The position numbers and the translations under genes were made by a program. From Planctomycetota bacterium (GTDB lineage: Bacteria; Planctomycetota; MHYJ01; WSZJ01), in assembly GCA_009773755.1 (NCBI GenBank), contig WSZJ01000005.1, positions 1 to 64,000 of the forward strand: 64,000 nucleotides of DNA, in the 5' to 3' direction. This document shows, piece by piece, positions 19,967 through 36,344 of this stretch. Each line of letters begins with the position of its first letter. Positions within the stretch are counted from its first letter, which is position 1. The notes beneath the pieces were generated by a model that saw nothing but the letters and a program-made list of their open reading frames with translations, did not search any database and was not told the DNA's origin.

Positions 19967-20994
19967 GTCAGCAACTCCTTTGCGAGAACGCCAATATCCC
20001 ACAGCTCCTGTCCCTGTCGGTCGAATCTGCTTCCCTTGGTAACCATCGCAACTCCCTGCCACGCCGCCGGTTTCGACAGACAAACGCAGCGGGGTGAATC
20101 CTTGGCGAGTTTCTCGACCCTCGAATTCAGTGAGCGATTCACAATCAGGGTGGGAGTTCCGTCCTGAATTCGTTTGACCAGATGGTTCTGCAAGTGATCG
20201 TCGTTAAAGCCGTACCCAACAATCAACAAGCGCCCGGCTCGTTTGATGTAGTCGTTGGCCAATTCACGATGCTTGTCGAACGGCGAGTCATATCCCGCGC
20301 GGTACTTGTTGTTGCCAGGCGTGATCATGAGACGCTCGCCATCCAAGTCCAGCGCACAACGACGCGCGTCTCCTCCAGACTTGTACCAATCGAAGCTGCC
20401 GTGAGGTTTCAGCACGATTGCGCGTGGAAAGTGCTCGAGGACGACTGTCTTCCCGCGCACGGTAATTCCCCGACAGGATCCCATGCAGCTTCGGGCATGA
20501 TCGAACGCACCCGCGTAGTGCCCGGTAGCGGTCGAATCCACATGAAAGCCCGCCATCTCGCACGCCACTTCAATGAGCCGATCATAGTTCGGCGTAAGGA
20601 TGGGCAACCCGGTCGTTGGCTTCAGCACTCTGGCAAGGAGACTAGTCAAGCGAAGTGAATGCTTGCCCTGGAGAACCGCGCTCATGATCAGGCGCTCGCT
20701 CGGCATCAGGAGGTCGCACGTCAGTTTTGCGATCCAGACCTCAAGCGTGTCGGACGGCGAGTGCTTCAGCAACGCCGCCTCCAATCCGTCGCCGGCAGCG
20801 AGCATGGCCCCGATTCGCTTCCACAACGTGGCGTCGGTTCCCTTCAGCGTGCCAGCGGCATTGGTGAGATGCTTGGCGAGATCCGGCATTCCCGGAATCC
20901 CTTCCGCGGCCGAGAGGCCGGAACCAATCACCAATGCAAGACCGTCGGTGAAATGTTCCTGCACGAATTTGACTAGTTCATCGTAGTCCACCAT
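19963..20994 (-). CDS. SIR2-family NADase of a SIR2-HerA defence system
   Basis: A 343-aa SIR2-like protein. The NAD-binding motif GSGLSAAEGIPGMPDL starts at residue 24, the TPNYDR motif is at 134-139, the catalytic histidine region KPHGSFDW at 196-203 and VGYGFNDDH at 259-267. There is no zinc-binding Cys4 module, as in defence SIR2 proteins that act as NAD hydrolases rather than deacetylases. It overlaps HerA downstream by 4 bases and follows DUF5131 by 6 bases. The NADase role is known for the system, not shown here. Confidence 0.92.
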   Translation of the reverse strand: MVDYDELVKFVQEHFTDGLALVIGSGLSAAEGIPGMPDLAKHLTNAAGTLKGTDATLWKRIGAMLAAGDGLEAALLKHSPSDTLEVWIAKLTCDLLMPSERLIMSAVLQGKHSLRLTSLLARVLKPTTGLPILTPNYDRLIEVACEMAGFHVDSTATGHYAGAFDHARSCMGSCRGITVRGKTVVLEHFPRAIVLKPHGSFDWYKSGGDARRCALDLDGERLMITPGNNKYRAGYDSPFDKHRELANDYIKRAGRLLIVGYGFNDDHLQNHLVKRIQDGTPTLIVNRSLNSRVEKLAKDSPRCVCLSKPAAWQGVAMVTKGSRFDRQGQELWDIGVLAKELLT

Positions 20995-21000
20995 CGCCCC

Positions 21001-21732
21001 TCAAGCTCCTGCGGTAACCGCATCAGAACAAGGCATTTCGTCGTACGTTCGGCCATCGAGTTCGCGACCGGTCCGGCTCTTCTGAACGCCACCCCACTGC
21101 TTGAAGAAGAACGGCACGCGCGCGGACTGGCACTGATCGCGGATGTCCAGGACCCACTCGCGGTCCATCAGTCGCGCTCCCGGCCCCGACTCGCCGCCGA
21201 CGATGACCCAGTCGATGCCGCGCAGGTTCAGGCTGCGGAGCGGGCCGAGCAGCGGCTCGAGGGAGAGGAATTTCACCGCGGCGTTCGTCTGGCGCAGGCG
21301 GTCGATCCGGAACTTGTAGTCGTCGCTCTCGACGCTCACGCCCATCCAGAGGTGCGGCTCCCAGCGCAACCGGGCGTCGAGCTCCAGCAAGCGATCGGCT
21401 CGCTTCGTCAGGATCTGGTAGCGGTGCCAGTCGGCGCGCCTCATCACGGCGAAGACCTGCTGCACGAACTCCTCGGGGACTTCCTCCTGGAACAAGTCGC
21501 TCATCGAGTTCACGAAGATGAGCTGGGGGCGCTTCCAGTGGAGCGGCGCTTCGAGCATGTGCGGCTGGAGCGTGACATCGAAACCGTTCCGATAGTTCCG
21601 CTGACCCATCGCCTTGAGACGGCGCGCCATCCGCTCGGCGTAGCAGTGCTTGCACCCCGGGCTGATCTTGGTGCACCCGGTGACCGGATTCCAGGTGGTC
21701 TCGGTCCATTCGATGGCTGACTTCAGACCCAT
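21001..21732 (-). CDS. DUF5131 / phage Gp37-Gp68 family three-cysteine protein
   Basis: A 243-aa protein. The defining cluster is C20-x6-C27-x2-C30 in the segment GCTKISPGCKHCYAERMARR, preceded by IEWTETTWNPVTG. It is followed by the family motifs FVNSMSDLF, RYQILTKRADR, MGVSVES and VIVGGESGPGAR. The fold resembles radical SAM enzymes and the cysteines probably bind an iron-sulfur cluster; the reaction is unknown. It is the three-Cys-motif protein from which the neighbouring TcmP takes its name. It overlaps TcmP by 10 bases and is followed by SIR2 after 6 bases. Confidence 0.92.
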   Translation of the reverse strand: MGLKSAIEWTETTWNPVTGCTKISPGCKHCYAERMARRLKAMGQRNYRNGFDVTLQPHMLEAPLHWKRPQLIFVNSMSDLFQEEVPEEFVQQVFAVMRRADWHRYQILTKRADRLLELDARLRWEPHLWMGVSVESDDYKFRIDRLRQTNAAVKFLSLEPLLGPLRSLNLRGIDWVIVGGESGPGARLMDREWVLDIRDQCQSARVPFFFKQWGGVQKSRTGRELDGRTYDEMPCSDAVTAGA

Positions 21733-22820
21733 GCGAGTTTCACCTCATCCGGGAACGTGTTGGCACGACGCTTTTTCCCGTCTGATTTCAACGCTTGCAC
21801 GTGAATTGTCGCCGACTGTTCCAGCTGTTTGAGCGCTCCGGTCATGTGCTTCTTCAAGTAGGCCGTCTGGTTTTCGACAAAAGCGCGAACATCGCCTCCC
21901 GTAACCGTCCCTTTCCCGAGGAACTGCTTGTTGAGTTGTCCGACGAGGAGAGGCGTCGCGTCGGCGTCTGAGGCGAACATCGCACGCTGATCCGGATTTG
22001 TCGCGTCCGAAAACCGAAACTCACCGTCCGGGTCGACCCTCCACATCGCTTCCTTCATCTTAAGGTGACCCGTCTCGTTATTCGTGGCGAAGAACAGGTA
22101 GTACTGGACGCGATTTTCATGATCGCGCATTTCGAAGTAGCGAACGTACCTGGCGACCTTCGCCAGCTTCGCCTGGTAAAGCCCTCGCAGTGCTTCGACT
22201 CGATCGCCCTCACCCTTGGCAATCCGGACGGCTTCATCGCCCCCGAATGCCTCGACGATGTGCTGCTGAACCTTGTCGTCGGGATGCTCAAGGAACCGAT
22301 TGATGGCATCCACCATGAAGGTCACGAGGACCTCGCACCTCCTCACCTTCATGAGACGCTCGATGAGCGAGAGCGGAATGCCCGAAAAACCAAAGGGGTC
22401 AATGAACGCAAAGGTCGGGGCGAGCGCGCCGTTTCCCTCATCGATCGAATTCAGAACTGCGCTGAACTTCTCGTGAAACCTGCCCGAGTCGGCGATGACG
22501 CGGAAGTGACTCGGAATCGTTCGTGCAGCCAACTCTTTGCGCAGCTGTTCAAGACGATCCTCGCGTTCTTCGATGAACCAGAAGATCACCTCTCCAGCGA
22601 TGGTCTTGCGATGGTTCAAGGCGACGTCGAGCGCGATGAGCGGCGAACCCGCTTCTCCATTCTTGTAGCGGCCCGGTCCTGAGAACCCGTCGATGTAGAC
22701 CACTCGAGTGTGGTGCGTGCTGAGAATTGGAAACCACGCTTCGAGGTAGCGCCGGAGAATTTCGTGCTTCGCCTTACTGTGAGGATCCAAAGGCCAGATT
22801 GTTTCTTTCGGTATGGTCAT
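21723..22820 (-). CDS. tcmP: Three-Cys-motif partner protein TcmP
   Basis: About 365 aa. It opens IWPLDPHSKAKHEILRRYLEAWFPIL, then VVYIDGFSGPGRY, AFIDPFGF and EVLVTFMVDAINRF, the conserved order of the TcmP family, which resembles a methyltransferase-like Rossmann fold. TcmP proteins are found beside three-Cys-motif (Gp37/Gp68) proteins, as here. The function is unknown; the phage and mobile-element distribution suggests nucleic-acid modification or defence. ATG 22820 has an AGG-like site 3-8 bases upstream and fits the family; ATG 22850 is an alternative without a Shine-Dalgarno. A TTGACA box at 22853-22858 favours the shorter form. It is the first gene of the operon. Confidence 0.88.
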   Translation of the reverse strand: MTIPKETIWPLDPHSKAKHEILRRYLEAWFPILSTHHTRVVYIDGFSGPGRYKNGEAGSPLIALDVALNHRKTIAGEVIFWFIEEREDRLEQLRKELAARTIPSHFRVIADSGRFHEKFSAVLNSIDEGNGALAPTFAFIDPFGFSGIPLSLIERLMKVRRCEVLVTFMVDAINRFLEHPDDKVQQHIVEAFGGDEAVRIAKGEGDRVEALRGLYQAKLAKVARYVRYFEMRDHENRVQYYLFFATNNETGHLKMKEAMWRVDPDGEFRFSDATNPDQRAMFASDADATPLLVGQLNKQFLGKGTVTGGDVRAFVENQTAYLKKHMTGALKQLEQSATIHVQALKSDGKKRRANTFPDEVKLAWV

Positions 22821-22970
22821 TCCTGCCTCAAAAATCTTGCCGACCCTCATCTTGTCAAGATCACCCAGCTCAAATGAGCCGGCGACTCTGCGAGAAGTCT
22901 AGGAAACACGTCACCCCTCCGCAACCGTCCCCCGCCGCTGCCCTTCAGTGGCACCGGTCATGATTCCACG

Positions 22971-23435
22971 CTACTTCCCCTTCTCATATGTCCCCACGAT
23001 CTCCACCTTCTCCACCACCTTCCCCTTCATCGCCGCTTCCAGCTCCGCCTTCGTCGGCTTCTTGAGATCCGGCAGCATCGCGTCGAGCGCGTACAGCTTG
23101 AAGAAGTACCGGTGCCTCCCGATCGGGGGGCACGGCCCGCCCCAGCCGGTGCGTTTCCAGTCGTTGAGGCCGGCGAGGGCGCCGGCGGGCGAGCTGCCTT
23201 CGGGGAAGCCGGCGCTTCCCGGGGGGATGTTGAAGAGGACCCAGTGGACCCAGGTCATCTTGGGGGCCTTGGGGTCGGGGGCGTCGGGGTCATCGACGAT
23301 GAGGGCGAGGGATTTGGCGGCGGCGGGGACGCCGGACCAGGCGAGGGCGGGGGAGACGTCGGGGCCTTCGCAGGTGTGTTTGCGCGGGATGGAAGCGCCG
23401 TTCTGGAATGCGGGGGAGGAGAGGGAGAGGGGCAT
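22971..23435 (-). CDS. YbhB/YbcL family PEBP-like protein 1
   Basis: A 154-aa phosphatidylethanolamine-binding-protein fold. Family motifs are visible: LSLSSPAFQNGASIPRKHTC, then SPALAWSGVP, LALIVDDPDAPDP, WVHWVLFNIPP and GGPCPP, with RYFFKLYALD near residue 110. The DPDAP and GxPxPP/HRY loops form the anion-binding pocket in PEBPs. The bacterial function is unknown. It lies 19 bases downstream of a second PEBP gene, a tandem pair that has diverged considerably. Confidence 0.9.
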   Translation of the reverse strand: MPLSLSSPAFQNGASIPRKHTCEGPDVSPALAWSGVPAAAKSLALIVDDPDAPDPKAPKMTWVHWVLFNIPPGSAGFPEGSSPAGALAGLNDWKRTGWGGPCPPIGRHRYFFKLYALDAMLPDLKKPTKAELEAAMKGKVVEKVEIVGTYEKGK

Positions 23436-23454
23436 GGGGGGCTCCTGCGGGGGC

Positions 23455-23919
23455 TTAAAGCAGCTTTCGCTTCTTCGTGTACGTGCCGATCAGCAGCGCG
23501 TGGGCGAGCACGTGGCCTTTCATCGCCGCTTCGACCTGCGCGAGCGGCGGCTGGCGGAGGCCCTTGAGGGCGATGTCGAGGGCGTAGAGCTTGAACTGGT
23601 AGCGGTGCTCGGTGTCGGTGGGCATCGGGCCGGTGTAGCACGACTTGCCGAAATCGTTCATTCCCTCGGAAGAGCCCGGCGGGGGGAGGCCGCTGGGGCC
23701 GATGCCGCCGGCGGTAGCGGGGATGTCGTAGACGATCCAGTGGGCGACCGGCGCGCCTTTGGCCGCGGACTGGTCGGTCACCGTCAGGACGAGCGAGACG
23801 GTCTCCGGGGGCGCGCCGCGGAAATCGAGGAGGGGCGGGAGGCCCTTGTCCTCGCTGGTGTGCTTCGCGGGGATTTCGTGACCGGATTTGAAGGCGGGGG
23901 ACAAGAGAGCGAAGGCCAT
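23455..23919 (-). CDS. YbhB/YbcL family PEBP-like protein 2
   Basis: A 154-aa homologue of the next gene. Conserved stretches are LLSPAFKSGHEIPAKHTSEDKG, SLVLTVTDQSAAKGAPVAHWIVYDIP, CYTGPMP and HRYQFKLYALD. The usual DPDAP of the ligand site is replaced by DQSAA and the GGPCPP by YTGPMP, so ligand preference may differ from its partner. Same length and spacing suggest an old tandem duplication. Confidence 0.88.
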   Translation of the reverse strand: MAFALLSPAFKSGHEIPAKHTSEDKGLPPLLDFRGAPPETVSLVLTVTDQSAAKGAPVAHWIVYDIPATAGGIGPSGLPPPGSSEGMNDFGKSCYTGPMPTDTEHRYQFKLYALDIALKGLRQPPLAQVEAAMKGHVLAHALLIGTYTKKRKLL

Positions 23920-23957
23920 GACTTGAAATTCTATGCGCTATCGAGTGTAACGGCGGC

Positions 23958-24146
23958 TCAGGGCTGCGATTTCTGGAAAACCTTGTGCATCCCAAGCCTC
24001 TGGTGCCCGGGCGGCGCGACGACGTGCAGCGGCACGTTGTTCTTCGGCCCGGCGATCGACTCCGTGAATTCGCGAAGGCCTTTCCAGATGCGGTCCTGCT
24101 CAAGCTGCGCGAGATCAGGCTCCAGTCTCACTTCGACGTCGGGCAT
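23958..24146 (-). CDS. Small protein of unknown function (62 aa)
   Basis: Starts at ATG 24146 with GGAGAG at good distance. The first 40 residues look helical and charged (DLAQLEQDRIWKGLREFTES). No family is recognised. The frame stays open upstream into a repeat-rich region, but that extension is low-complexity translation of the inverted repeat and was not used. Possibly co-transcribed with the two PEBP genes. Confidence 0.55.
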   Translation of the reverse strand: MPDVEVRLEPDLAQLEQDRIWKGLREFTESIAGPKNNVPLHVVAPPGHQRLGMHKVFQKSQP

Positions 24147-24189
24147 GCACACTCTCCGGGCAAGAAGCCCGTTGGGGTTTGGGGTTGCG

Positions 24190-24418
24190 AGTTGTTGGGG
24201 AGATTGGGGTTTCGAGTTCCGGATGTTGAGTTCCGGGCTCCGGGTTCCGACTTCCGGGTGGGGTTCCGGGTTGGGAATTCCGTGTCGGCGTCGCGCGCCA
24301 ACCCGGCTCGTCTCGCTCGGTTGGCCGCAACGCGAAACCAGCCACTCCCAACCCCACGCGGAACCCGGAACCCGGAACTCCGAACTCAACATCCGGAACT
24401 CCCAACCCCCAACTCCCC
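24190..24418. repeat. Large imperfect inverted repeat in a divergent promoter region
   Basis: The left arm (about 24190-24275) and right arm (about 24345-24418) are imperfect reverse complements, built on TTCCGG/CCGGAA units; the core GAGTTCCGGATGTTGAGTTC is matched closely in the other arm. It fills the space between the divergent 24146 and 24448 genes, so it is not a terminator. Confidence 0.75.
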
Positions 24419-24428
24419 GCCAAGCCAC

Positions 24429-24434
24429 TATAAT
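24429..24434 (+). promoter_or_regulatory. -10 box of the ABC-F gene
   Basis: A perfect TATAAT ending 13 bases before ATG 24448. The leader would be only about 6-8 bases, with no Shine-Dalgarno. No clear -35 is seen; that position lies at the edge of the inverted repeat. Confidence 0.5.
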
Positions 24435-24447
24435 CCGCCCCCCTCAT

Positions 24448-26328
24448 ATGCCCGTCGCCGTCCTCAACGGAGTCACCAAGGCCTACCCCGGAAAGGTGGT
24501 CCTCGACCTCGTCGACTTCCAGGTCGACGCGGGGCAGCGTGTCGGCCTCGTCGGCGCGAACGGCGCGGGGAAGACGACGCTTCTGCGCATCCTCGCAAGG
24601 GAAATAGAGCCCGACTTCGGCGAGATCCAGATCGCCCGCGGGATGCGCCTCGGGTACGTGCGCCAGACCGACCAGCTCGGCGGCGCGCACACTCTGGAGG
24701 AAGCGCTTCTCGAGCCGTTCGAGGAGCTGCTCAAGCTCCACGAGCGGATGGAGCTGGTGGCGCACGAGATGGAGACCGCTTCCACGCCCGCGCTCCTCGA
24801 GGAGTGGGGCGAGCTGCAGCACCAGTACGAGGCGGGCGGCGGGTACGAGTACGAGACGGAGATGCGGGTGGTGTCGCACGGGCTGGGATTTGAGGAAGTG
24901 GACCTCAAGAAGCACGTCGCGACGATGAGCGGCGGCGAGCGGAGCCGCGCGGCGCTGGCGCGCGAGCTGCTGGCGAAGCCGAATCTGCTGCTGCTCGACG
25001 AGCCCACGAACCACATCGACATCGCGGGGATCGAATGGCTCGAGGATTACCTGAACGGTTTCGCCGGCGCGGTCATCGTCGTCTCGCACGACCGCTATTT
25101 TCTCGACCGCGTCACGAACCGCACGGTGGAAGTCGGCGGCGGAAAAACCGAAGCGTACGACGGGTCGTTCAGCAACTACGTCGAAGAAAAGGAAATCCGG
25201 CGCGAGGCGAAGCGCGTCGCGTTCGCGAAGCAGCAGGAGCACATCGAGAAGACCGAGGAGTACATCCGGCGGTTCGGCGCCGGGCAGCGCGCGCGGCAGG
25301 CGAAGGGCCGCAAGCGCCGGCTCGAGCGCCTCGAGCGGCTCGACCGCCCGGACGGCTCGGGGAAAATCCTGCGCGTGCGCTTCGGCCCGGTGCACCGCAG
25401 TTCGCTCTCGGCGATCAGGGTGCGCGGCGTAGCCAAGTCGTACGGCAAGCGCGAGCTGTTCCGCGACGTGACGTTCACGATCGAGCGCGGCGAGCGCGTC
25501 GGGCTGATCGGCCCCAACGGCTCCGGCAAGACAACGCTCTTCAGGCTCATCGTCGGCCAGGAAAAACCCGACGCGGGCGAAGCGGTGCTGGGTTCGTCGG
25601 TGGAAGTCGGTTACTACGATCAGAATCTCGGCGGCCTCAACCTGACCAAGTCAGTGATGGACGAGATCTGGAACGTCGACCTCTCGCTGACGCGCGAGCA
25701 GCTCCAGTCGTGGCTCGCCCTGTTCCTCTTCCCCGCCGACGACGTCCACCGCATCGTCGGCACCCTCTCCGGCGGCGAGAAATCCCGCGTCGTCCTCGCG
25801 AAACTCCTCCTCACGCGCCCCAATACGCTCTTCCTCGACGAGCCCACCAACCACCTCGACATCCCTTCGCGCCAGTCCGTCGAAGAAGCCCTCGACGGCT
25901 ACGAAGGCACGATCGTCACGATCTCCCACGACCGCTACTTCCTCGACCGAGTCTGCGACCGCATCCTCGCGATCGAGGACGGGCGCGTCGTCGACTATCC
26001 GACCGACTACACGGGGATGATGGAGAAGCGGGAGCAGCGCGCGGGCAAGGCGCCGGCCGTCAAGCCTGTCGCGGCCCCGCTTCCGCCCGCGGCCGCGCAC
26101 CAGGAGGACCACAAGGAGCAGCGACGTCGGTGGAAGCGCATCGAGCGGGTGCAGGAAGAAATCACCTCGCTCGAGCGGCAGATCGAGGACGTGACGGCGA
26201 AGCAGTGCGAGCCGGAGATCGCGACCAATCGCCGGAAGCTGAACGAGCTCGAGAAGGAGAAGACGTCTTTGAAGAAGAAGTGCGAGGAGTTATATGCTGA
26301 ATGGGAGGGATTGGAAGCGGGAAAGTGA
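24448..26328 (+). CDS. ABC-F family ATP-binding protein
   Basis: A 626-aa soluble protein with two ABC domains and no membrane spans. Domain 1: Walker A GANGAGKTT (about residue 35), signature MSGGERSRAALA, Walker B LLLLDEPTNHID and switch HDRYF. The inter-domain linker of about 80 aa is highly charged (KRRLERLERLDRP), as in ribosome-binding ABC-F proteins. Domain 2: GPNGSGKTT, LSGGEKSRVVLA, LFLDEPTNHLD and HDRYFLDRV. A C-terminal coiled coil (about 545-626) resembles Uup/EttA-type extensions. ABC-F proteins act on the ribosomal E site to relieve stalling, or confer antibiotic resistance. ATG 24448 is fixed by the domain start; no natural Shine-Dalgarno is seen. Confidence 0.93.
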   Translation: MPVAVLNGVTKAYPGKVVLDLVDFQVDAGQRVGLVGANGAGKTTLLRILAREIEPDFGEIQIARGMRLGYVRQTDQLGGAHTLEEALLEPFEELLKLHERMELVAHEMETASTPALLEEWGELQHQYEAGGGYEYETEMRVVSHGLGFEEVDLKKHVATMSGGERSRAALARELLAKPNLLLLDEPTNHIDIAGIEWLEDYLNGFAGAVIVVSHDRYFLDRVTNRTVEVGGGKTEAYDGSFSNYVEEKEIRREAKRVAFAKQQEHIEKTEEYIRRFGAGQRARQAKGRKRRLERLERLDRPDGSGKILRVRFGPVHRSSLSAIRVRGVAKSYGKRELFRDVTFTIERGERVGLIGPNGSGKTTLFRLIVGQEKPDAGEAVLGSSVEVGYYDQNLGGLNLTKSVMDEIWNVDLSLTREQLQSWLALFLFPADDVHRIVGTLSGGEKSRVVLAKLLLTRPNTLFLDEPTNHLDIPSRQSVEEALDGYEGTIVTISHDRYFLDRVCDRILAIEDGRVVDYPTDYTGMMEKREQRAGKAPAVKPVAAPLPPAAAHQEDHKEQRRRWKRIERVQEEITSLERQIEDVTAKQCEPEIATNRRKLNELEKEKTSLKKKCEELYAEWEGLEAGK

Positions 26329-26423
26329 ACGGGACGACGGGTTGCTTTCGCGCATCGCCTTCGGAAGCGCGCGCTTCTCGATCGGCGTCCGACCGCAACC
26401 GTGTAGACTACGGGCCTGAATCC

Positions 26424-26975
26424 ATGAAAACCTCGACCCCCGTCACCGCCGATCAGTTCGAGCGGCTCGCCGCATCCATCGGCTCATGCGAGCTCGTGAA
26501 AGGAGAACTCGTCGCGATGTCACCGGGCGGAGTGGAACACAGCCGGATCGTCACAAACTTCGTGCTGCACCTGGGAACGTGGGCTTCGAAATCGAAGGGA
26601 GGCCGGGTGCTGAGCGGCGAAGCCGGCGTCATCGTCGGCCGAGATCCTGACACCGTGCGCGGCGCCGATGTCCTGTACATCTCGTACAAGAGGCTTCCCA
26701 AGGGACAGAAGTGGTCCGGATTCCTCACGCAGCGGCCGGAGCTGATCGTCGAGGTTCTCGGCCTGAAGGACACTTGGGCGGACATGGAAACCAAGCTGGC
26801 CGAATACCGGGGCTTCGGCGTCGACCTCGTCTGGATCGGCGACCCCCAGACCCAGACCGTGCGCGTCCACCCGCGCGGCGGCAAGCCTGCGACGTTTCAT
26901 GGAGACGATGAGCTGTCCTCGCCGAAGCTCCTTCCCGGTTTTCGCTGCAAGGCGAAGGAGTTTTTCGAAGAGTAG
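26424..26975 (+). CDS. Uma2 family endonuclease (DUF820)
   Basis: A 183-aa protein of the PD-(D/E)XK-like Uma2 family. Visible motifs are ELVKGELVAMSPGGVEHSRIV, GEAGVIVG, VRGADVLYISY (catalytic D), PELIVEVLG (catalytic E, then downstream K in METKLAEYRGFGV) and LVWIGDPQTQTVRVH. The function is unknown; copies multiply in Planctomycetota and Cyanobacteria. ATG 26424 matches the family start; the open extension to 26301 is unlikely. A TAGACT box at 26404-26409 would give a leader shorter than 10 bases. Confidence 0.88.
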   Translation: MKTSTPVTADQFERLAASIGSCELVKGELVAMSPGGVEHSRIVTNFVLHLGTWASKSKGGRVLSGEAGVIVGRDPDTVRGADVLYISYKRLPKGQKWSGFLTQRPELIVEVLGLKDTWADMETKLAEYRGFGVDLVWIGDPQTQTVRVHPRGGKPATFHGDDELSSPKLLPGFRCKAKEFFEE

Positions 26976-27053
26976 AAGGGTGCGGCTTCACCGCAAATTC
27001 GCGCCGCGACGGATTGATGAACTGGCGCTCCACTTCTCTTGAGGGATTCGGTC

Positions 27054-28271
27054 ATGCGCCGCCTGCCCCTTTTCCTCCTGGCCACTTCCGCCGCCTTCGC
27101 CCAGGAGCTGACGGACAGTTCTTACGCGGCCATCCGCGACCACGTCCTCCCTTCAGCGGATGAACTCCGGTGGACCGCCGTCGACTGGCGCGCTTCATTC
27201 TGGGACGCCGTCGTCGAGGCGCAGAAGGCCGACAAGCCGATCCTTCTCTGGGCGATGAACGGCCACCCGCTCGCCTGCACGTGAAACAACGGCGTTTCCG
27301 CCCGGCGGTCCGTCTGGGGCGACGCGAAGGTGCAGGAGCTGGCGAAGGAGTTCGTGGCGTGCGCGGACGAGGTGAATCACCTGCAGACCGTCAAAGGACC
27401 GGAGGCCGACCTGTTCAGGAAAGTCGCCGAGCAGGGTCACTACGCCGGACGCGTGAAGCCGACGAGCACCCGGCAGGGAATCTACGCCTGCGCCCCCAAC
27501 GGCGTCTTTCTCGCGTCGATCAACACTACGAACGCCGCCGCGATGGCCGGGATGATGGAGAAGGCGCTCGCGAAGTGGAAAGAGCTCAAGCCGGAAGACC
27601 GCCTGATGAAAGAGGCGCCGGGCGCCGATCCGGGCGGACGCACGCGCTGGGAACGCCTCTTTCCGGCGGACGGCCTCGTCCTCAAGGACTGGTCGCGCGA
27701 CCTCCCTCGCGAAGGTCCCGCCCGCGCCGCGTGGAACCTCGACTTCGCCTGGTTCCGCAAAGAGGAAGCCCGCCGATTCCTCCCCGACACGATCGAGGAA
27801 GGCGCGCTTCACGAAGTCCCTCGCGAGATCGTCCTCCGGCTGGCCCGCTTCCACTTCGTCGACAACGTTCGCGGGCAGACATACCCGTGGCAGGAAGCGG
27901 AGATTGCGACGGCGGAACTGGCGGCGATCGTCGACGAGGTGAACGGCGGCCGCGCGCGGATCCGCTTCGCCGGGAAAACGAAAGCGACCGCGGTCGGCAA
28001 ATGGCGCGTGAACGGATTCGACCCGACGACGGTCGACCAGAAGCGTGGGTTCGACGCGAAGATCCTGGGGAGCGCGACGTGGGATCTCGCGAAGGAACGC
28101 TTCGTCGAATTCGAGCTCATCGCAGCCGGAACGCGGTGGGGCGGCACGCAGTACAACGGGCGGCCGGACGACCTGGGTGAAGCTCCGATGGCGCACTTGT
28201 TGCGGCTTGCGGGGGACACGCCGGCCGAGCGGGTGGCGCCGGCTTCGATCTGGGGGTATGGGTGGAAGTAG
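27054..28271 (+). CDS. Secreted selenoprotein with Cys-Thr-Sec motif
   Basis: Read through an in-frame TGA at 27282-27284, the gene encodes 405 aa. A signal peptide (RRLPLFLLATSAAFAQ) precedes a thioredoxin-like helix-strand (FWDAVVEAQKADKPILLWAMNGHPLA) ending in C75-T76-Sec77-N-N-G, a CxU redox motif at the active-site loop. The frame then continues without interruption through KEFVACADEVNHLQ for another 328 codons. The C-terminal two thirds look like a beta-rich domain (LARFHFVDNVRGQTYPW, then GFDAKILGSATWDL). Neither half would be stable alone, and the C-terminal half has no start site, so readthrough fits better than two genes or a pseudogene. ATG 27054 gives a clean signal peptide. The family is not one I can name; a periplasmic oxidoreductase is the inference. 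Confidence 0.82.
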
Positions 28272-28430
28272 AGCAAGCTGGCGGAGGCTGAGGGACGCTG
28301 GCGAAGGCTGGCGGAAGCTAACTTCTTCCGCAGCCTTCGCCAGCCTCCGCAGCCTTCGCCAGCCTCCGCAGCCTTCGCCAGCCTCCGCAGCCTCCGCCAG
28401 CCTCCGCCAGCCTCCGCCAGCCCCTTCGCC
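28272..28430. repeat. Inverted repeat with short tandem repeats
   Basis: The left arm (28272-28318, GCTGGCGGAGG-type units) is the complement of a right arm (28325-28430) made of about ten 9-10-base CAGCCTCCG / CAGCCTTCGC units in a 19-base alternating pattern. It fills the gap between two same-strand genes. Confidence 0.8.
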
Positions 28431-28487
28431 GCAATTTCCCCGTTTATTCACGAATCCCCAACACTCCCCGGATACTCTCGCCGCCCC

Positions 28488-29999
28488 ATGAAAGTCGCCG
28501 CCATCGACATCGGCGCCAACAGCGTCCACCTCGTCGTCTCGAGGCTCTTTGCTCCCGGAATCCGGGAGGTGCTGGATCGCTCGAAGGAGATGCTGCAGCT
28601 GGGGCGCGCGACGTTCCGGAACGGGTCGATTCCTGCGGCGGACATGGACCGTGCGATCGGAGTGCTGCGACGGTTCCGCGCGATCGCCGAAGCGCAGGGA
28701 GTTGAAGCGGTGCTGGCGGTCGCGACCTCGGCGGTGAGAGACGCGCGGAATCGTGGAGAGTTCGTGAAGCGCGTCGAGAAGGAGGCGCGGCTGGCGGTGC
28801 GCGTGGTTTCGGGAGAAGAGGAAGGCCGCCTGATTTATGCCGGCGTGCGCGAAGGGCTGCCTCCGGACGCCGGCCGGATCGGGGTGATCGACATCGGCGG
28901 CGGAAGCGCGGAGGTGATTGTCGGCGAGGGGGAGAAGCCGTCTTTGGTGAGGAGCCTGAAGCTGGGCGTGCTCCGGCTCGTGGAGAAGTTCCCGAGGCCG
29001 AAAGACCGCCGCGACATGGAGGATCACGTCCTCGAGGAAATCAAGCCCGTTGCGAAGGAGGTGAAACGGCGCGCGCCCGCTTCCGTATTCGGGACGAGCG
29101 GGACGATCCTGACGCTGGCCAAGCTCCTCGGCGTCCGGGGCGAAGGCGAGTCGATCCGGCGCGAGCCGCTCGAAGACCTGTCGCACCGGCTGATCGCTTC
29201 TTCGCGCAAGGAGCTGGCGGCGCTCGGACCCGTGGGCGATGCGCGCGCCGACACGATCGGGCCGGGATCGCTGGTGATACGCACCTTCATGGAAGAAGCG
29301 GACCTGGAGGAGTTGATCCCGTGCGACCGCGCGCTCCGCGAGGGCGTCGTCGCCGATTACGCGGCGCGCAACGCGGCCCGCCTCTCGATCCGCGAGGACG
29401 AAATCGCCGACCCGCGCCGCCGCAGCGTCCACGTCCTCGCCCGTCGCCTCGGCGCGCTCGACCTCCACGCGACGCACACGACCCGCCTCGCGCTCCGCAT
29501 GTTCGACGACCTCGCGCCGCTTCATCGCCTCGCCGCCGGAGACCGCGAGATTCTCGAATATGCGTCGCTGCTTCACGACGCCGGCTACTGGATCAGCGCC
29601 GAGAAGCACCACAAGCACGCCTACTACCTGATCATGAACGGCGCGATCGAGGGATTCACGGACGAAGAACGCCTCCTGATCGCGCTCGTCGCCCGTTACC
29701 ACCGGGGCTCGCTTCCAAGTCCCGACCACGAGGGGTACTCGAAGCTCGGCAAGGGGCAGCGCCGACGCGTCGATCTTCTGAGCGGAATTCTGCGGGTCGC
29801 CGACGGGCTCGACCGGAGCCACGCGGCGATCGTGGACGAGATCCGGCTGATTCCGGAGGGCGGCGACATCACGCTTGAGATCCGGGCCTCGTCCGATCCC
29901 GAGCTCGAGCTCTACACCGCCGCGCGCAGATCGGACCTCTTCCGAAAGGCCTTCGAGCGGGAGCTGAAGCTTCGGGTCGTGCGAAGGGAAGAGCGATGA
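28488..29999 (+). CDS. Ppx/GppA phosphatase with HD domain
   Basis: A 503-aa protein. The N-terminal actin-fold half holds VAAIDIGANSVHLVV (phosphate 1 loop), AVATSAVRDARN, the catalytic region VVSGEEEG and the glycine loop IDIGGGSAEVI. From about residue 315 there is an HD-type domain with LLHDAGYWISAEKHHKHAYY. This matches exopolyphosphatase / pppGpp phosphohydrolase enzymes of the longer two-domain type. It hydrolyses terminal phosphates of polyphosphate or converts pppGpp to ppGpp. The stop overlaps the CHAD gene by ATGA, giving a ppx-CHAD-sixA operon centred on phosphate polymers. Confidence 0.9.
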   Translation: MKVAAIDIGANSVHLVVSRLFAPGIREVLDRSKEMLQLGRATFRNGSIPAADMDRAIGVLRRFRAIAEAQGVEAVLAVATSAVRDARNRGEFVKRVEKEARLAVRVVSGEEEGRLIYAGVREGLPPDAGRIGVIDIGGGSAEVIVGEGEKPSLVRSLKLGVLRLVEKFPRPKDRRDMEDHVLEEIKPVAKEVKRRAPASVFGTSGTILTLAKLLGVRGEGESIRREPLEDLSHRLIASSRKELAALGPVGDARADTIGPGSLVIRTFMEEADLEELIPCDRALREGVVADYAARNAARLSIREDEIADPRRRSVHVLARRLGALDLHATHTTRLALRMFDDLAPLHRLAAGDREILEYASLLHDAGYWISAEKHHKHAYYLIMNGAIEGFTDEERLLIALVARYHRGSLPSPDHEGYSKLGKGQRRRVDLLSGILRVADGLDRSHAAIVDEIRLIPEGGDITLEIRASSDPELELYTAARRSDLFRKAFERELKLRVVRREER

Positions 30000-30835
30000 G
30001 CCGGCTCCCGCCAGGTCCGCGCGCGGCGCTGGCGCCCCTGGCAGCCCGGCTCCTGGCGGAGCTCCGGCGTGTGCGCAAGAACCCCGCTGACGTCGGAGCG
30101 ATCCACGACGCGCGCGTCGCGGCGAGACGCCTCTCGGCGGCGGGGGAGATCTGGCTCGAAGCCGGAAAGCCCCTCGACAGGCTGCAGGGCCGGCTCGAAA
30201 AATGCCTGCGGCGCCTCGGGCGCGTGCGAAACGCGGACGTGGCGCTCGAATTCCTCGCGGATGGCCCTGCTCCTGAAGCCGCGGCGCGCACGGCCCTGTC
30301 GAAAGGCCTGCGCCGGAAACTTAAGTTCCGGCGAAAACAGCTCGCGGCCTGGCTGACGGTCCAGCGCTTCAAGCGTCTGAAGTCGACGCTGTCGCGCGCG
30401 ATTCCGGAAGCGCGGGACGGCGCTGAGCCTCCCGGCCCGCGCACGCTGGGCCGCCAACTCCAGACAGTGCTGGGCCTTTCCATTCGAGGCCGGCCGATGG
30501 CCGACCCGGCGAAGGCGCACGAGCTCCGTCGCAAGATCCGGATTCTCCGCTACCAGCAGGAGTCCATCGCCGCCGCGTATTCGGAGAATGACACCGCCGC
30601 GCTGCGTGACCTCTTCATCCATCTCCAGGACGCGGCCGGCGGCTGGCACGACCGCTTCCAGCTCGACCGTCTCGCCGCCGCGATCGAGCAAAAACCGAAA
30701 TACCGTCGCGCTGCCGGCCTGCTTCGCCGCCGGCTGGCCTCGGAAATGAAGGAGGCCAGCGCGCGATTCGTGGAAGCGCTTCAGAATCTGAATCGATTGA
30801 AGGCGATCCTGCTCGGACAGGCAGGGCGAGCATGA
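29996..30835 (+). CDS. CHAD domain-containing protein
   Basis: A 279-aa helical protein with the conserved-histidine alpha-helical domain: IHDARVAARRLSAAGEIW (residues 37-54) carries the hallmark H and RR, then KLRRVRNADVALEF-like GRVRNADVA and HELRRKIRILRYQQE (about 162-176), again with paired basic residues. CHAD domains bind polyphosphate and coat polyphosphate granules. The overlap with ppx upstream and sixA downstream (ATGA on both sides) supports a joint polyphosphate role. Confidence 0.9.
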   Translation: MSRLPPGPRAALAPLAARLLAELRRVRKNPADVGAIHDARVAARRLSAAGEIWLEAGKPLDRLQGRLEKCLRRLGRVRNADVALEFLADGPAPEAAARTALSKGLRRKLKFRRKQLAAWLTVQRFKRLKSTLSRAIPEARDGAEPPGPRTLGRQLQTVLGLSIRGRPMADPAKAHELRRKIRILRYQQESIAAAYSENDTAALRDLFIHLQDAAGGWHDRFQLDRLAAAIEQKPKYRRAAGLLRRRLASEMKEASARFVEALQNLNRLKAILLGQAGRA

Positions 30836-31329
30836 AAAACGTCTGCTTTTTCCGCCACGGAGTCGCCGTCGAGTCCGGCACGCCGGGCGTAGTCGAGAAA
30901 GCCCGCACGCTGACGGAGGATGGACGGCAGAAGACGCGCCAGGCAGCCCTGGGCCTGAAGCGGCTCAACCTGGGGCTCGACTCGGTCTTCACAAGCCCGC
31001 TTCCACGCGCCCTCGAGACCGCGGAGATCGTCGCGGAGGTCCTGGAGTTGCCACGGCCGCGGCTCACGGATCGGCTGCTCCCGGGAACGTCGGCGGCGCG
31101 GTTGTTGGAGATACTGAAGGAGATTGAAGGGAGTGCGCCGGTGCTGGTGGGTCACGAGCCGGCGCTTTCGTCCGCCGTATCGCTGTTCGTATCAGCGGCC
31201 GATACAGGGGATTTCCGGCTCAAGAAGGCAGGGATGGCGTTCGCGAAGGTGAAGACGCTTGCTCCGCGGCCGCGCGGATCGCTGCTGCTTCTTCTCACGC
31301 CGGGAGCGCTGCGGACGCTGGGGAAGTGA
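30832..31329 (+). CDS. sixA: SixA-type phosphohistidine phosphatase
   Basis: A 165-aa member of the histidine phosphatase superfamily. RHG (CFFRHGVAVE, residues 6-15) carries the catalytic histidine, FTSPLPRALETAEI the second arginine, and LVGHEPALS the second histidine. The length is that of SixA, which dephosphorylates histidine-containing phosphotransfer proteins. Its fixed place after CHAD and ppx suggests a phosphate-related role instead of, or besides, two-component control. Confidence 0.88.
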   Translation: MKNVCFFRHGVAVESGTPGVVEKARTLTEDGRQKTRQAALGLKRLNLGLDSVFTSPLPRALETAEIVAEVLELPRPRLTDRLLPGTSAARLLEILKEIEGSAPVLVGHEPALSSAVSLFVSAADTGDFRLKKAGMAFAKVKTLAPRPRGSLLLLLTPGALRTLGK

Positions 31330-31798
31330 GAATTCGGAGATCGGTGCTGCAACACCAAGCAAGATGAAAAGCTCAGCTCAACAGTCTTGGGGGAATTCCG
31401 TGGGTCGCCTGGTGCGGGCCTCCGGTTCTATTCTCTTTCATTCGCTTTTATTCGCGACTCGTCTTTGTTTTTCACCGTTGGCTCGGGGAGAAACCGGGAA
31501 AACAAAGACTGGTCGCGAATAAAGGAGAATAAAGACGAATGGAGCCGAGAGCTGTTTCAGGATTCCTGCCTGGAGCGACCCGCGAAATCCCCGGATGAGC
31601 CATTCAAAATGTGAAATGGCTGGCGGGTGCGGTGCAGTGGCACGTAGGAGGAAACCTCCGGGTCGCCACACGCTCCGGAATGACTCGTACTTCATTTCAT
31701 ATTACACATTTCATATTAAGTCGTTTTTCGCGACTCCCGCCCCCTCCGTGACTCTTCCCCAGCGCGGTTTGCCTCCCTCCGCCCCGCCGCAAACCCAA
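31330..31798. repeat. Convergent intergenic region with an inverted repeat
   Basis: Arms at 31446-31472 and 31499-31523 pair (TTTATTCGCGAC / GTCGCGAATAAA, then TCTTTGTTTT / AAAACAAAGA) around a 26-base loop. The AT-rich arm ends could serve as a bidirectional terminator. The right part (31560-31798) holds no gene; two TTTCATATTA copies around 31695-31719 are the only other repeat. Confidence 0.7.
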
Positions 31799-31826
31799 CA
31801 AAAAAGGCCGCCCCGGAGGGCGGCCT
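31799..31826 (-). terminator. Rho-independent terminator of the porin gene
   Basis: On the minus strand an 8-bp perfect GC stem (GGCCGCCC / GGGCGGCC, loop TCCG) is followed directly by TTTTTTG. It sits 18 bases past the porin stop. Confidence 0.92.
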
Positions 31827-31844
31827 CTTCAGTTCCGGTCCAGT

Positions 31845-33173
31845 CTAGAAATCGACCTGCGCCCGGACGATCAGGGCGTCTTCACGGTCGAGGCGATGGC
31901 CATTGGCCGTGAGAAGTCTGCGCGAATCTTCACGGTCGTACCGGTAGTTCACGTACATGAGAGAAACGCGGACGTGGGCGTTCGGATAGTAGTTCACCCC
32001 GAGCGACCACTCCGTCACGTTCTTGCTTCCGGCGAGGCCGGCATGCTCTTCGTACGTGTCGCTCATCCGGAGAGACGCGTACCGTCCGATCAGCTGGATG
32101 TCGCCGAATCCGCCCTTTTCGCCGAACAGCGGCTTCTTGATGTCGGGCCGATGGTTGTCCAGCCGTGTGCTGCCCAGAATCCAGAAACCGACCTGCGCGT
32201 ACCACGCCTTCGCCCTGAAGGTCTCGTGGTCCACGTCGTTGAACTCGACCTTGTTCTTCCAGGCAGTCATTTCGGACTTCAACGACAACGGACCCCAGTT
32301 CCACGACAGGTCCGCGCCAAGCCGCTGCACCGTGTTGTTGTTCTCCCAGTTGGCCGCGGCTCCACCCGTCGGGACGCCGTTCCAGACCGTGCCCGTCCCG
32401 GGCGACTCGAAATCGAAGGGCGTCTGGTTGTCGTTTTCCGCATTGCCCCAGGTCAGGCTGCCGCCGATTGACAGGTGCTTGATGATGTCGCTTTCCATCT
32501 TCGCACCCGGCCGCAGAGCCACGCGCGCCGCGATGTCCTTGTCGCTGTTCTCGTCGCCGCCAACGCCATTGCCGTTGAACACGCCGACCGCGTAATTCAC
32601 GATTCCGTCGAACGGCGAGCCGTGGACCATCAAGCCCAGGTCCCGACCCGGCGTCATGATGCTCAGGATGGAATCTTCGTTCATGTCCATCCAACGGACG
32701 TCCTCAAGCCGCTCACGGGAGTACGGCTCCTTGAAGAGCCCCGCGCGGACCTTCAGGCAGTCCCACTTGTTGAACTCGACCCACCCGTAGTACAGGTCGG
32801 TTCCGCCCGGGCCGACCCGCGCCCGGACATACGCTTCCCACGCGCCCCAGAGGCGGCCGTACAGGTCCACCGCGGCTTCCCGGATCGAGAAGTTCTCGGT
32901 GTACCCGTCTCCCTCATTGAAGCGGGGGAAACTCGTGTAATGCACGATCGCAAACGCCCCGATACGGCCCTCGAACGAGCCGTTATCGGTCTTGAGGCGC
33001 AAGCCGTCGTCGAAGTAGGCGCCGACGGCGTCTCCTCCGGCCGGCTTGGCCTTCTCCTCCGATTTCATCTCGAGCGCTTTCACGCGGTCCTCGAGACTGC
33101 CCGTCTGGGCGGGGGCCTGTGAGGCGGCGAGCAGGACAGCAAGCGCCGCGGCAGGCCAGGTCAGAAGTCGCAT
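31845..33173 (-). CDS. Outer-membrane porin, phosphate-selective OprO/OprP type
   Basis: A 442-aa protein. A signal peptide ends at about residue 23 (LLAASQAPAQ). A short coiled-coil segment follows (SLEDRVKALEMKSEE), as in trimeric OprP/OprO proteins, then a 16-strand-like beta barrel with alternating aromatic residues (AEAAVDLYGRLWGAWEAYVRA-type strands). The C-terminus ends in an aromatic residue (RAQVDF), the usual barrel-assembly signal. ATG 33173 follows a GGGAGGAG site. The implied outer membrane is Gram-negative-like. Its place beside ppx-CHAD-sixA hints at phosphate or polyphosphate uptake, but selectivity cannot be read from the sequence alone. Confidence 0.85.
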   Translation of the reverse strand: MRLLTWPAAALAVLLAASQAPAQTGSLEDRVKALEMKSEEKAKPAGGDAVGAYFDDGLRLKTDNGSFEGRIGAFAIVHYTSFPRFNEGDGYTENFSIREAAVDLYGRLWGAWEAYVRARVGPGGTDLYYGWVEFNKWDCLKVRAGLFKEPYSRERLEDVRWMDMNEDSILSIMTPGRDLGLMVHGSPFDGIVNYAVGVFNGNGVGGDENSDKDIAARVALRPGAKMESDIIKHLSIGGSLTWGNAENDNQTPFDFESPGTGTVWNGVPTGGAAANWENNNTVQRLGADLSWNWGPLSLKSEMTAWKNKVEFNDVDHETFRAKAWYAQVGFWILGSTRLDNHRPDIKKPLFGEKGGFGDIQLIGRYASLRMSDTYEEHAGLAGSKNVTEWSLGVNYYPNAHVRVSLMYVNYRYDREDSRRLLTANGHRLDREDALIVRAQVDF

Positions 33174-33311
33174 GGACTCCTCCCGAAAAACCAATCCGTT
33201 GATCCGAAAGGACGGCGTGCGGCCAATGCCGCGCAGAGACTCCGGGATTGGAACGGAGTCTCTCTTCCCCATACCGTCCTTTTCCCTTATCGACCCCACG
33301 TCGGGGCGGAG

Positions 33312-33356
33312 TTTACACAAAGTTCATGTTCAGTTAGTAATATGTTCAGCGCTTCA
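33312..33356 (-). promoter_or_regulatory. AT-rich direct repeats upstream of the porin
   Basis: The hexamers TTTACA, TTCATG, TTAGTA and TTCAGC start at 33312, 33323, 33334 and 33345, exactly 11 bases apart. ATGTTCAG occurs twice 16 bases apart. The 11-base periodicity is that of PhoB boxes, although the match to the known consensus is weak. The 33174-33496 gap between porin and selD otherwise contains nothing recognisable. Confidence 0.35.
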
Positions 33357-33496
33357 AGTTCGAAATTTTTGAAGGGGCTGAGAGGCGGTATCGGCGCTCA
33401 GGCCGGTTTCGGCGCCGCAACTTCGGCCGATCGCCACTTCCGCCCCGCAGCCGCGCCCGCTACAGTTCGGGTGTCCGAAACATCGGAGGCAAAACC

Positions 33497-34555
33497 ATGG
33501 CGCTCTTCAGCAAGACCCGCCCGCGGCTGACCGACATGTCCAGCTGCGCCGGCTGAGCGTCGAAACTGGGTCCGGCGGACCTGCACAAGGCCCTGGAAGG
33601 GCTGACGGCGCCGACTGACGCGAACGTTCTCGTGAATGCGGGGACGTTCGACGATGCGGGCGTGTATCGACTGGACGCGGAGCGGGCGCTGGTGCAGACG
33701 GTGGATTTCTTCACGCCGATCGTGGACGACCCGCGGTCGTACGGGCGGATTGCGATCGCCAACGCGCTGTCGGACGTGTACGCGATGGGCGGGCGTCCGA
33801 TCAACGCGCTGAACATCCTGTGCTACCCGATGGAAGCGCTGGGGCACGAAGTGCTGCACGAAATTCTCGCGGGCGGAAACGACAAGTACACGGAAGCGAA
33901 ATGTGTGCTGCTGGGCGGGCACAGCGTGACGGACCAGGAGCTGAAATTCGGCGCGGCGGTGACGGGGCTCGTGCATCCGGACCGGATCTGGACGAACGCC
34001 GGGGCAAAGGCGGGGGATGTGCTGGTGCTGTCGAAGCGGCTGGGAACGGGGATCCTGACGACGGCGCTGAAGGCGAAGAAAATGAGTGAAGCGGACGCGA
34101 AAGAGGTCGTGGCGCAGATGGAGCAACTGAACGCCGGCGGCGTCGCGGCCGCGGAAGGAAAGGAAGTGCACGCGGCAACGGACATCACGGGCTTCGCGCT
34201 GGCGGGGCACGGGTCGGGAATGGCGGAGGCATCAGGCGTGACGCTCGTGATCCAGACGTCGAAGGTTCCCGTGCTGCCTGAGGCCGAGAAATTCGCGGCG
34301 AAAGGGCAGAAAACGCGCGGGGACGTTTCGAATCGCGAGTGGCTCGGCCCGAAGTACCGGACGGCCGCGGGAGTGCGGAAATCGCTCGAGGACATCATGT
34401 TCGACCCGCAGACGTCCGGCGGCCTCTTCTTCAGCGTCCGCCCCGACCACGCCGACGCGCTCGCGCGCGATCTGAAAAAAAACGGGTTCGAATACGCGGC
34501 GATCGTCGGCGAGGTGAAGGCGAAATCGGAGCGGCTGATCGAGTTTGTCCCATGA
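33497..34555 (+). CDS. selD: Selenide, water dikinase SelD, itself a selenoprotein
   Basis: A 352-aa protein read through TGA 33554-33556 as Sec20. Sec occupies the active-site position in SCAGUASKLGP, where other SelD proteins have Cys or Sec (GCxCK or GUxCK type). The rest is typical: AGVYRLDAERALVQTVDFFTPIVDDP, YAMGGRPINALNI, LLGGHSVTDQELKFG and DPQTSGGLFFSV. SelD makes selenophosphate from selenide and ATP, the donor for Sec-tRNA synthesis. GGAGG lies upstream of ATG 33497. A 5-bp stem with a GGC loop follows the TGA at 33569-33581. The TGA overlap (ATGA, 34552-34555) couples it to the next gene. Length is normal for the family. Confidence 0.95.
33569..33581 (+). promoter_or_regulatory. 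Candidate bacterial SECIS hairpin of selD
   Basis: GGTCC-GGC-GGACC forms a perfect 5-bp stem. The loop starts 18 bases after the Sec TGA and begins with GG. This satisfies the usual bacterial SECIS rules: apical loop 16-37 bases downstream, G among its first two bases. Confidence 0.65.
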
Positions 34556-35622
34556 AAGAATGCCTCCTCTACGAGCCCCTTCCCCAGGGGAACATCAAAT
34601 GCAACCTCTGCCAGGTGCGCTGCACGGTGCGCCCGGGCAAGGCGGGGTTCTGCAATACGCGCCTGAACCGCGACGGAAAGCTCTGGTCGCTCATCTACGG
34701 CGTGACGAGCGCGATCGCCGTTGACCCGATCGAGAAGAAGCCGATCAACCACGCGTACCCGGGGACGAAGATCCTCTCGGCGGGAACGCGCGGGTGCAAT
34801 TTCCACTGCCCCGGCTGCCAGAACTGGGAGATCTCCCACGACAAGCCGAGCGAGGACGGCTCGAACCTCGAGAAGATGTCTCCGCTCGAGTCGGTCGAGA
34901 TGGCGATCCGCGAGGGGTGCGACGGGATCTGCTGGACCTATAACGAGCCGACGATCTGGTTTGAGCACACGCTGGAGGCGGCGCAGGAAGCCAGGAAGCG
35001 CGGGCTCTACACCGCCTACATCACCAACGGCTACATCACGCCGGAAGCGCTCAAGATCATCGCCCCGTTCCTCGACATCTACCGCCTCGACCTCAAGGCT
35101 TTCAACCGCAAGGCCTACCACAAGATCAGCGGCGGCCTCGCGCGGTTCGACGAGCTCCTCGCCGTCGCCGAAATGGCGAAGTTCCGCTATCGCATGCACG
35201 TCGAGGTCGTGACCAACGTCACCCCGACCGTGAACGACGACGACGAGCAGCTCAACGGCATGGCGAACTGGATCGCGACGAAGCTCGGCCGGGAGACGCC
35301 CTGGCATGTCACGCGCTTCATCCCCTACCTCGATCTCGCTCACCTGCCGGCGACGCCTGTGAAGCGGCTCGAGGAAGCGCACGCAATCGGGAAGCAGCAC
35401 GGGCTGGAGTACGTGTACGTGGGGAACGTCCACGGTCATCCGCTGGAGAATACGTACTGCCCGAAATGCAGCGCGACGCTCGTCGACAGGTCGGGATACG
35501 AAATTTCGCGGATCCGGATCCGCGATTCGAAATGCCCCGACTGCGGCTACCCGATCTTCGGACGGTGGGAGCGCATGAAGCTGGGAGACGGAAGGCGCTA
35601 CAGCGTTCGCGCCCGCCGATGA
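34552..35622 (+). CDS. amrS: AmrS-like radical SAM protein (AmmeMemoRadiSam type)
   Basis: A 356-aa protein. Residues 15-35 carry a cysteine-rich entry (C17, C20, C24, C34). The radical SAM cluster is C82-x3-C86-x2-C89 in GCNFHCPGCQNWEIS. Core motifs YNEPTIWFEH and YITNGYITPEAL follow, then RLDLKAFN. The C-terminus has a zinc-ribbon-like CPKC...CPDC pair. This is the AmmeMemoRadiSam radical SAM architecture; its partners MEMO1 and AMMECR1 are not in the window. It overlaps selD and lgt by ATGA on both sides, so the three form one operon. The substrate is unknown. Confidence 0.85.
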   Translation: MKECLLYEPLPQGNIKCNLCQVRCTVRPGKAGFCNTRLNRDGKLWSLIYGVTSAIAVDPIEKKPINHAYPGTKILSAGTRGCNFHCPGCQNWEISHDKPSEDGSNLEKMSPLESVEMAIREGCDGICWTYNEPTIWFEHTLEAAQEARKRGLYTAYITNGYITPEALKIIAPFLDIYRLDLKAFNRKAYHKISGGLARFDELLAVAEMAKFRYRMHVEVVTNVTPTVNDDDEQLNGMANWIATKLGRETPWHVTRFIPYLDLAHLPATPVKRLEEAHAIGKQHGLEYVYVGNVHGHPLENTYCPKCSATLVDRSGYEISRIRIRDSKCPDCGYPIFGRWERMKLGDGRRYSVRARR

Positions 35623-36344
35623 GATCGATCCTTTTCGAAATCCTCGGGCTCCCCGTCTACGCCTTCGGCGCCGGGATCGCCATCGCGTTTGCGTTCGCGG
35701 CGTGGCACATCCGCAAGCTCGCGATGAAAGAGGGAATGTTCTTTGTGTTCCAGCCGACCGAATGGACCACGCACTTCAGCCGCGCGCCGCTCGAAATTGT
35801 GAAGATCTGGGAGGGGGGACTGACTTTCTACGGAGGCCTCATCGCGTGTTTCATCACGGTCCCCTTCGTCTTCCGCCACCACAAGATGCCCTTCTGGCCC
35901 GTCGCCGACTGTTTCGCGCCGTCGCTGGCGATCGGTCACGGGATCGTCCGCCTCGGCTGTTTCATGAACGGCTGCTGTTACGGGAAGCCGGCGACGTGGG
36001 GGATCGTGATGCCGGAGGTAGACGCGCTCGCGCGGCAGCCGAGCCAGCTGTACGAATCCGGAGCAGGGATTCTCATCTTCGGATTCCTCCTCTGGCTGCA
36101 CCCGCGCCGCCGCTTCGTCGGCCAGACGATTCTCAGTTACCTGCTCCTCTACGCCGTCTCGCGCTTCCTCATCGAGATGTCGCGGGGCGACGCTGAGCGC
36201 GGGGGCCTGGGGCCCTTTTCAACATCGCAGTGGGTGGCGGTCGGCGTCGCGGTGATCGCGGGGGCGCTGTGGCCGTGGCTGAAGCGGACGCGGGCACGGG
36301 AAGTCGCGACGGAAGAGGGGAACGCCGCGTCGACGGCCGCGTGA
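35619..36344 (+). CDS. lgt: Prolipoprotein diacylglyceryl transferase-like protein
   Basis: A 241-aa polytopic protein, somewhat short for Lgt. The signature region HGIVRLGCFMNGCCYGKP (about residues 107-124) matches the Lgt core; GGLTFYGGLIACF provides the upstream glycine-rich loop and QPSQLYESGAGI the conserved P(S/T)QLYE motif. Lgt attaches diacylglycerol to lipobox cysteines of prolipoproteins at the inner membrane. It is the third gene of the selD operon, an unusual partner. The stop is two bases from the convergent GAF gene. Confidence 0.85.
   Translation: MRSILFEILGLPVYAFGAGIAIAFAFAAWHIRKLAMKEGMFFVFQPTEWTTHFSRAPLEIVKIWEGGLTFYGGLIACFITVPFVFRHHKMPFWPVADCFAPSLAIGHGIVRLGCFMNGCCYGKPATWGIVMPEVDALARQPSQLYESGAGILIFGFLLWLHPRRRFVGQTILSYLLLYAVSRFLIEMSRGDAERGGLGPFSTSQWVAVGVAVIAGALWPWLKRTRAREVATEEGNAASTAA

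Follow-up and report, generated by a model that had tools for sequence, protein, structure and literature searches.

The gene at 27054-28271 of the window (the whole stretch of 64,000 nucleotides analysed here) encodes a selenoprotein and belongs, in the sampled genomes, to a large and so far uncatalogued Planctomycetota selenoprotein family. Its most unusual feature is the near-absence of forms with Cys in place of selenocysteine (Sec, U). Translated with TGA as U, the gene gives 405 residues with U at position 77, a single in-frame TGA with 328 codons beyond it and a TAG stop, in agreement with the preliminary description of this DNA, which had proposed a secreted, thioredoxin-like selenoprotein. 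Judging from its N-terminus, the protein is exported, as had been claimed: the residues MRRLPLFLLATSAAFA, followed by QE, resemble a type I signal peptide, and hydrophobic N-termini are found in most homologues. The features discussed below are collected in Table 1.

Table 1. Positions in the window of the selenoprotein gene, its parts and selD
Feature	Position	Strand	Evidence
Selenoprotein CDS, 405 aa and TAG stop	27054..28271	+	Translation, homologues
Probable signal peptide, cleavage expected after AFA (residue 16)	27054..27101	+	Sequence reading; hydrophobic N-termini of homologues
Thioredoxin-like domain, residues 24-180	27123..27593	+	AlphaFold; Foldseek 3ira, 2lst, 3ph9; HMMER register to 3f9u, 3ira
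Cys75-Thr76-Sec77 active-site motif, TGA at 27282-27284	27276..27284	+	Translation, homologue alignment
Candidate bSECIS-like hairpin, apical loop GUC 23 nt after the TGA	27297..27322	+	Moderate support
C-terminal beta-rich domain, residues 208-385, without confident PDB fold match	27675..28208	+	AlphaFold, fold search
selD with its own in-frame TGA (Sec20, C-A-G-U), Sec machinery	33497..34555	+	Pfam AIRS and AIRS_C

Conservation of the reading frame across the TGA

Mechanical ORF calling breaks the selenoprotein gene in two, an ORF of 81 aa that the TGA terminates and, after it, one of 313 aa that begins with GTG. Such a split would be expected if the TGA really terminated translation and what follows were either the remnant of a pseudogene or a gene started on its own. 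The homologues speak against this. The first five relatives were found via peptide patterns in genome contigs, and all four covering the site carry TGA there, one of them in a MAG labelled Armatimonadaceae. A protein search gave matches in 17 of 59 related genomes, with several paralogues per genome, and a profile built from 29 members found matches in 110 of 294 Planctomycetota genomes; strong profile matches (E<=1e-30) occur in 95 of 392 Planctomycetota genomes, the largest sample searched, which is about a quarter, and some of these hold multiple copies. A search of a plasmid collection returned no family match. Altogether, 131 distinct homologues have TGA at the Sec column (115 in a first set and 16 in a second), and 113 of them are nearly full length (>=300 profile columns). 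In comparison with an 85%-identical orthologue (L001), dN/dS is 0.09/0.58 (~0.16) before the TGA and 0.08/0.70 (~0.11) after it. Because the aligned TGA is shared by 131 homologues and the sequence is under purifying selection both before and after it, its presence is not due to chance; moreover, none of the sampled homologues stops at this TGA or begins after it as a separate gene. Sequence comparison thus establishes a frame conserved across the TGA under purifying selection, with the codon evidently decoded as a residue, and since the TGA also falls within a predicted folded domain, we regard a true stop as practically negligible. Two homologues (L051, L196) have a second TGA, but this one is at their C-terminal end and is the ordinary stop. 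The long ORFs of two further genomes (G254, G137), which gave weak C-terminal-like matches (E 1e-4), were not accepted as family members; a Pfam scan of one of them produced a sub-cutoff PKD match only.

Identity of the encoded residue

The assignment of the decoded residue as Sec is well supported, although it rests on comparison, and to this extent a standard amino acid, inserted through a reassigned code or programmed readthrough, has to be weighed against it. Some family genes in relatives terminate at TGA, which is therefore still a stop for them, arguing that the code is not reassigned. The source genome encodes the full Sec machinery: tRNA-Sec (71.9 bits, contig C145), SelA (450 bits, C148), SelB (C23) and, 5 kb downstream of the selenoprotein gene, selD, itself with an in-frame TGA. 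Known Sec-containing SelD proteins likewise carry an in-frame TGA in such a motif; standard ORF calling places the start of this selD late, at 33632. Across genomes, SelA was found in 72 of 75 with the TGA form versus 138 of 219 others (Fisher p=1.5e-9, the genomes being related and phylogeny uncorrected); in the three remaining TGA-form genomes (67-91% complete) SelA was not detected. In alignments, the TGA position also corresponds to the catalytic Cys in proteins with CxxC and to a Cys in a distant relative (L171, see below). Insertion of a standard amino acid is thus very improbable, and the conserved TGA, the complete machinery and the association with SelA together uphold the selenoprotein of the preliminary description.

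A bacterial SECIS element (bSECIS) after the TGA is likely, with moderate support. The 54 bases following the TGA can fold into a hairpin; in most members of the main family its apical loop begins 22-23 nt beyond the TGA, and G stands within the first two positions of the loop site in 125 of 130 members. Most members lie within the published bSECIS limits, a loop at 16-37 nt and G in the first two loop positions (PMC13188914). With synonymous reshuffles as control, the hairpin has a mean z of -0.72 and covariation is confined to part of the stem, a loop pair A-U/G-C covarying in 24 of 34. The codon of Arg84 is AGA in 11 of 39 members, compared with 2% of Arg codons (p=1.4e-10, related sequences). 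From a 35-sequence alignment RNAalifold predicted no more than a weak hairpin of 3 pairs, which lies in another register and shows no compensatory changes, and an Rfam scan of 20000-36000 returned no SECIS family, only sub-threshold matches.

Fold and active site

Given the family alignment, AlphaFold yielded a model with a mean pLDDT of 93, consisting of a thioredoxin-like domain and a beta-rich domain, in which U77 immediately precedes a helix. Foldseek retrieved the thioredoxin-fold chains 3ira, 2lst and 3ph9 (probability 1.00 for 3ira and 2lst, best E 8.6e-3, TMt up to 0.66), so that the thioredoxin-like character suggested earlier is borne out. HMMER alignments with 3f9u and 3ira place U77 on the first Cys of the CxxC motif and G80 on the second; in this register CxxC has been turned into U-N-N-G, the second Cys having become Gly, while a new Cys (Cys75) stands two residues upstream of Sec, giving C-T-U-N-N-G. 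The idea that the TGA sits where a redox cysteine pair is expected holds insofar as Sec takes the position of the first CxxC Cys, but the pair is not the standard one, its second Cys being replaced and the partner lying upstream. Cys at -1 or -2 was found in 120 of 131 Sec forms as against none of eight non-Sec forms (p=3e-8, phylogeny uncorrected); since 11 Sec forms have no Cys at either position, the partner Cys is not obligatory.

The beta domain folded alone reached a pLDDT of 92.5. Neither with the whole model nor with the beta domain alone did a search of PDB folds give a confident match for this domain, the C-terminal region that the preliminary description had called unexplained; barrel and lipoprotein chains reached a probability of at most 0.57.

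Sec, Cys and loss

In the sampled genomes, no member of the full-length family has a Cys codon where Sec is expected; the homologue comparison that had been suggested thus brought TGA at the site in abundance and next to no Cys. Eight non-Sec forms (L027, L071, L072, the second L073 gene, L074, L181, L182 and L183) carry Asp, Ser or Pro at the site, the alignment being uncertain where the loop has an insertion; an apparent decayed copy with frame breaks (L070, in genome G101) was excluded from this count. In a tree of 104 rows, which takes in the first five of the eight, these are nested among Sec forms at three distinct points, some of the forks being modestly supported. SelA was not found in two genomes in which only non-Sec forms were found (G116, G188), in the genome with the decayed copy or in G298 (61% complete); G309 and G374 have a Ser form, yet SelA is present too. 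At L073 (G128) and at L079 (G009), a single contig carries a Sec form with a non-Sec form close by.

A single form with Cys in the place of Sec was met with in a distant subfamily, where the Cys of L171 aligns with the Sec of L177 (34% identity, E=4e-32); SelA was not detected in the genome of L171. Distant exported thioredoxin-like relatives (L081, L082, L085-L089, L168, L177, L178) have Cys adjoining Sec (RCU, HCU, NCU, ECU) and varied C-terminal parts, and two of them, L081 and L082, are encoded in the selenoprotein gene's own genome. Distant canonical thioredoxins with CxxC are also present. These observations may describe a phylum-scale superfamily of exported thioredoxin-like selenoproteins in which Cys cannot take over the function of Sec: a protein would either retain Sec or, on giving up its chemistry, lose it along with the partner Cys. 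We put this forward tentatively, rating its chances slightly below even.

Genomic surroundings

Clustering of gene neighbours at 25 loci revealed no conserved neighbours except in one family (f30), where in five genomes an ORF of the ECF sigma-factor type and a second conserved ORF stand directly upstream of the selenoprotein. This pair was examined in L105 (6064-8198): the first ORF has matches to Sigma70 regions 2 and 4; the other, of 521 residues, resembles a FecR-like or membrane anti-sigma protein when judged only by reading its sequence, its Pfam match being sub-cutoff. The selenoprotein start lies within about a dozen bases of the pair, which suggests an operon in this family. In the window, a gene for a Uma2-family putative nuclease (26301-26975) lies directly upstream of the selenoprotein gene and is not linked to it in relatives. 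The intergenic stretch after the selenoprotein gene (28277-28422) consists of two adjoining tandem-repeat stretches with 10- and 19-base units, which contain the near-complementary motifs GCTGGCGGAG and TCCGCCAGCC.

Relation to known families

The preliminary description did not recognise the family. The selenoprotein gave nothing relevant against Pfam (E<=1), NCBIfam and PDB sequences in single-protein searches, and the family is absent from Pfam, from NCBIfam 20.0 and from the list of 119 prokaryotic selenoprotein families in a 2026 review (PMC13188914, Table 1). No description of it was found in the literature searched, subscription papers and preprints being outside its scope. Closest in fold are Thioredoxin_7 (PF13899) and Thioredox_DsbH (PF03190), represented by 3f9u and 3ira, which have in common with the family the KP-[IV]-L-L strand before the active site; unlike them, the selenoprotein has C-T-U-N-N-G without CxxC, an additional C-terminal beta domain and no Pfam match. 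Thioredoxin_7 was matched by 3 of 29 members only (best E 0.0011). The Trx7/PDZ selenoprotein NF041199 and the VPGUxxT thioredoxin-like NF041383, whose catalogue motifs are CxxU and VPGU (PMC13188914), show weak similarity to one or two members (E 0.098 and 0.018), and the selenoprotein itself matches neither.

The adjacent Cys-Sec of the distant subfamily (RCU, HCU, NCU) recalls the C-terminal Cys-Sec pair of mammalian thioredoxin reductase, but fold, location and protein differ and the likeness is one of analogy only. In a screen of nearly 200 genomes, glycine reductase selenoprotein A (GrdA) stood out as the only clear case of a selenoprotein lacking Cys homologues (PMC1914089). It resembles the family in this respect, but differs from it as a CxxU protein of glycine reduction (PMC13188914); its Pfam model (PF04723) was matched neither by the selenoprotein nor by family members.

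Proposed function

We consider it probable that the protein is an exported selenol oxidoreductase of the envelope, working with a Cys75-Sec77 pair and using the beta domain for its substrate. In the exported protein, Sec77, placed at the N-terminal end of a helix of the thioredoxin fold, would act as the redox nucleophile, Cys75 would resolve it with formation of a Cys75-Sec77 selenenylsulfide, and a thiol donor of the envelope would then reduce the latter. Binding or positioning of the substrate is probably the task of the C-terminal beta domain. The most likely putative activity is that of a reductase or peroxidase on an envelope substrate, and the rarity of Cys forms suggests a step for which thiol chemistry is insufficient. 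This rarity may also be read differently: Sec could serve a reaction other than thiol-disulfide exchange, such as reductive dehalogenation or the binding of a metal or metalloid, in which Cys75 would help or act as a co-ligand. That Cys never substitutes in the full-length family, that non-Sec forms lose both residues, that CxU is not a standard thioredoxin motif and that genomes hold several paralogues would all fit such a role, but the thioredoxin fold and the placement of Sec at the usual nucleophile position favour ordinary selenol redox chemistry, and we hold such a different reaction to be unlikely.

Implications

Current selenoprotein finders depend on Cys homologues, and the family lies in their blind spot, its genes being likely annotated as truncated. 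The authors of deep-Sep state that their method may miss selenoproteins without Cys homologues (PMC12013277), and such proteins were called scarce in the 2007 screen (PMC1914089). Should Sec indeed be irreplaceable by Cys in the superfamily outlined above, it would be a second large family of selenoproteins that lack Cys homologues and would catalyse an envelope reaction beyond the reach of thiols. The family offers a test case for the question why some proteins keep Sec though Cys is one base change away.
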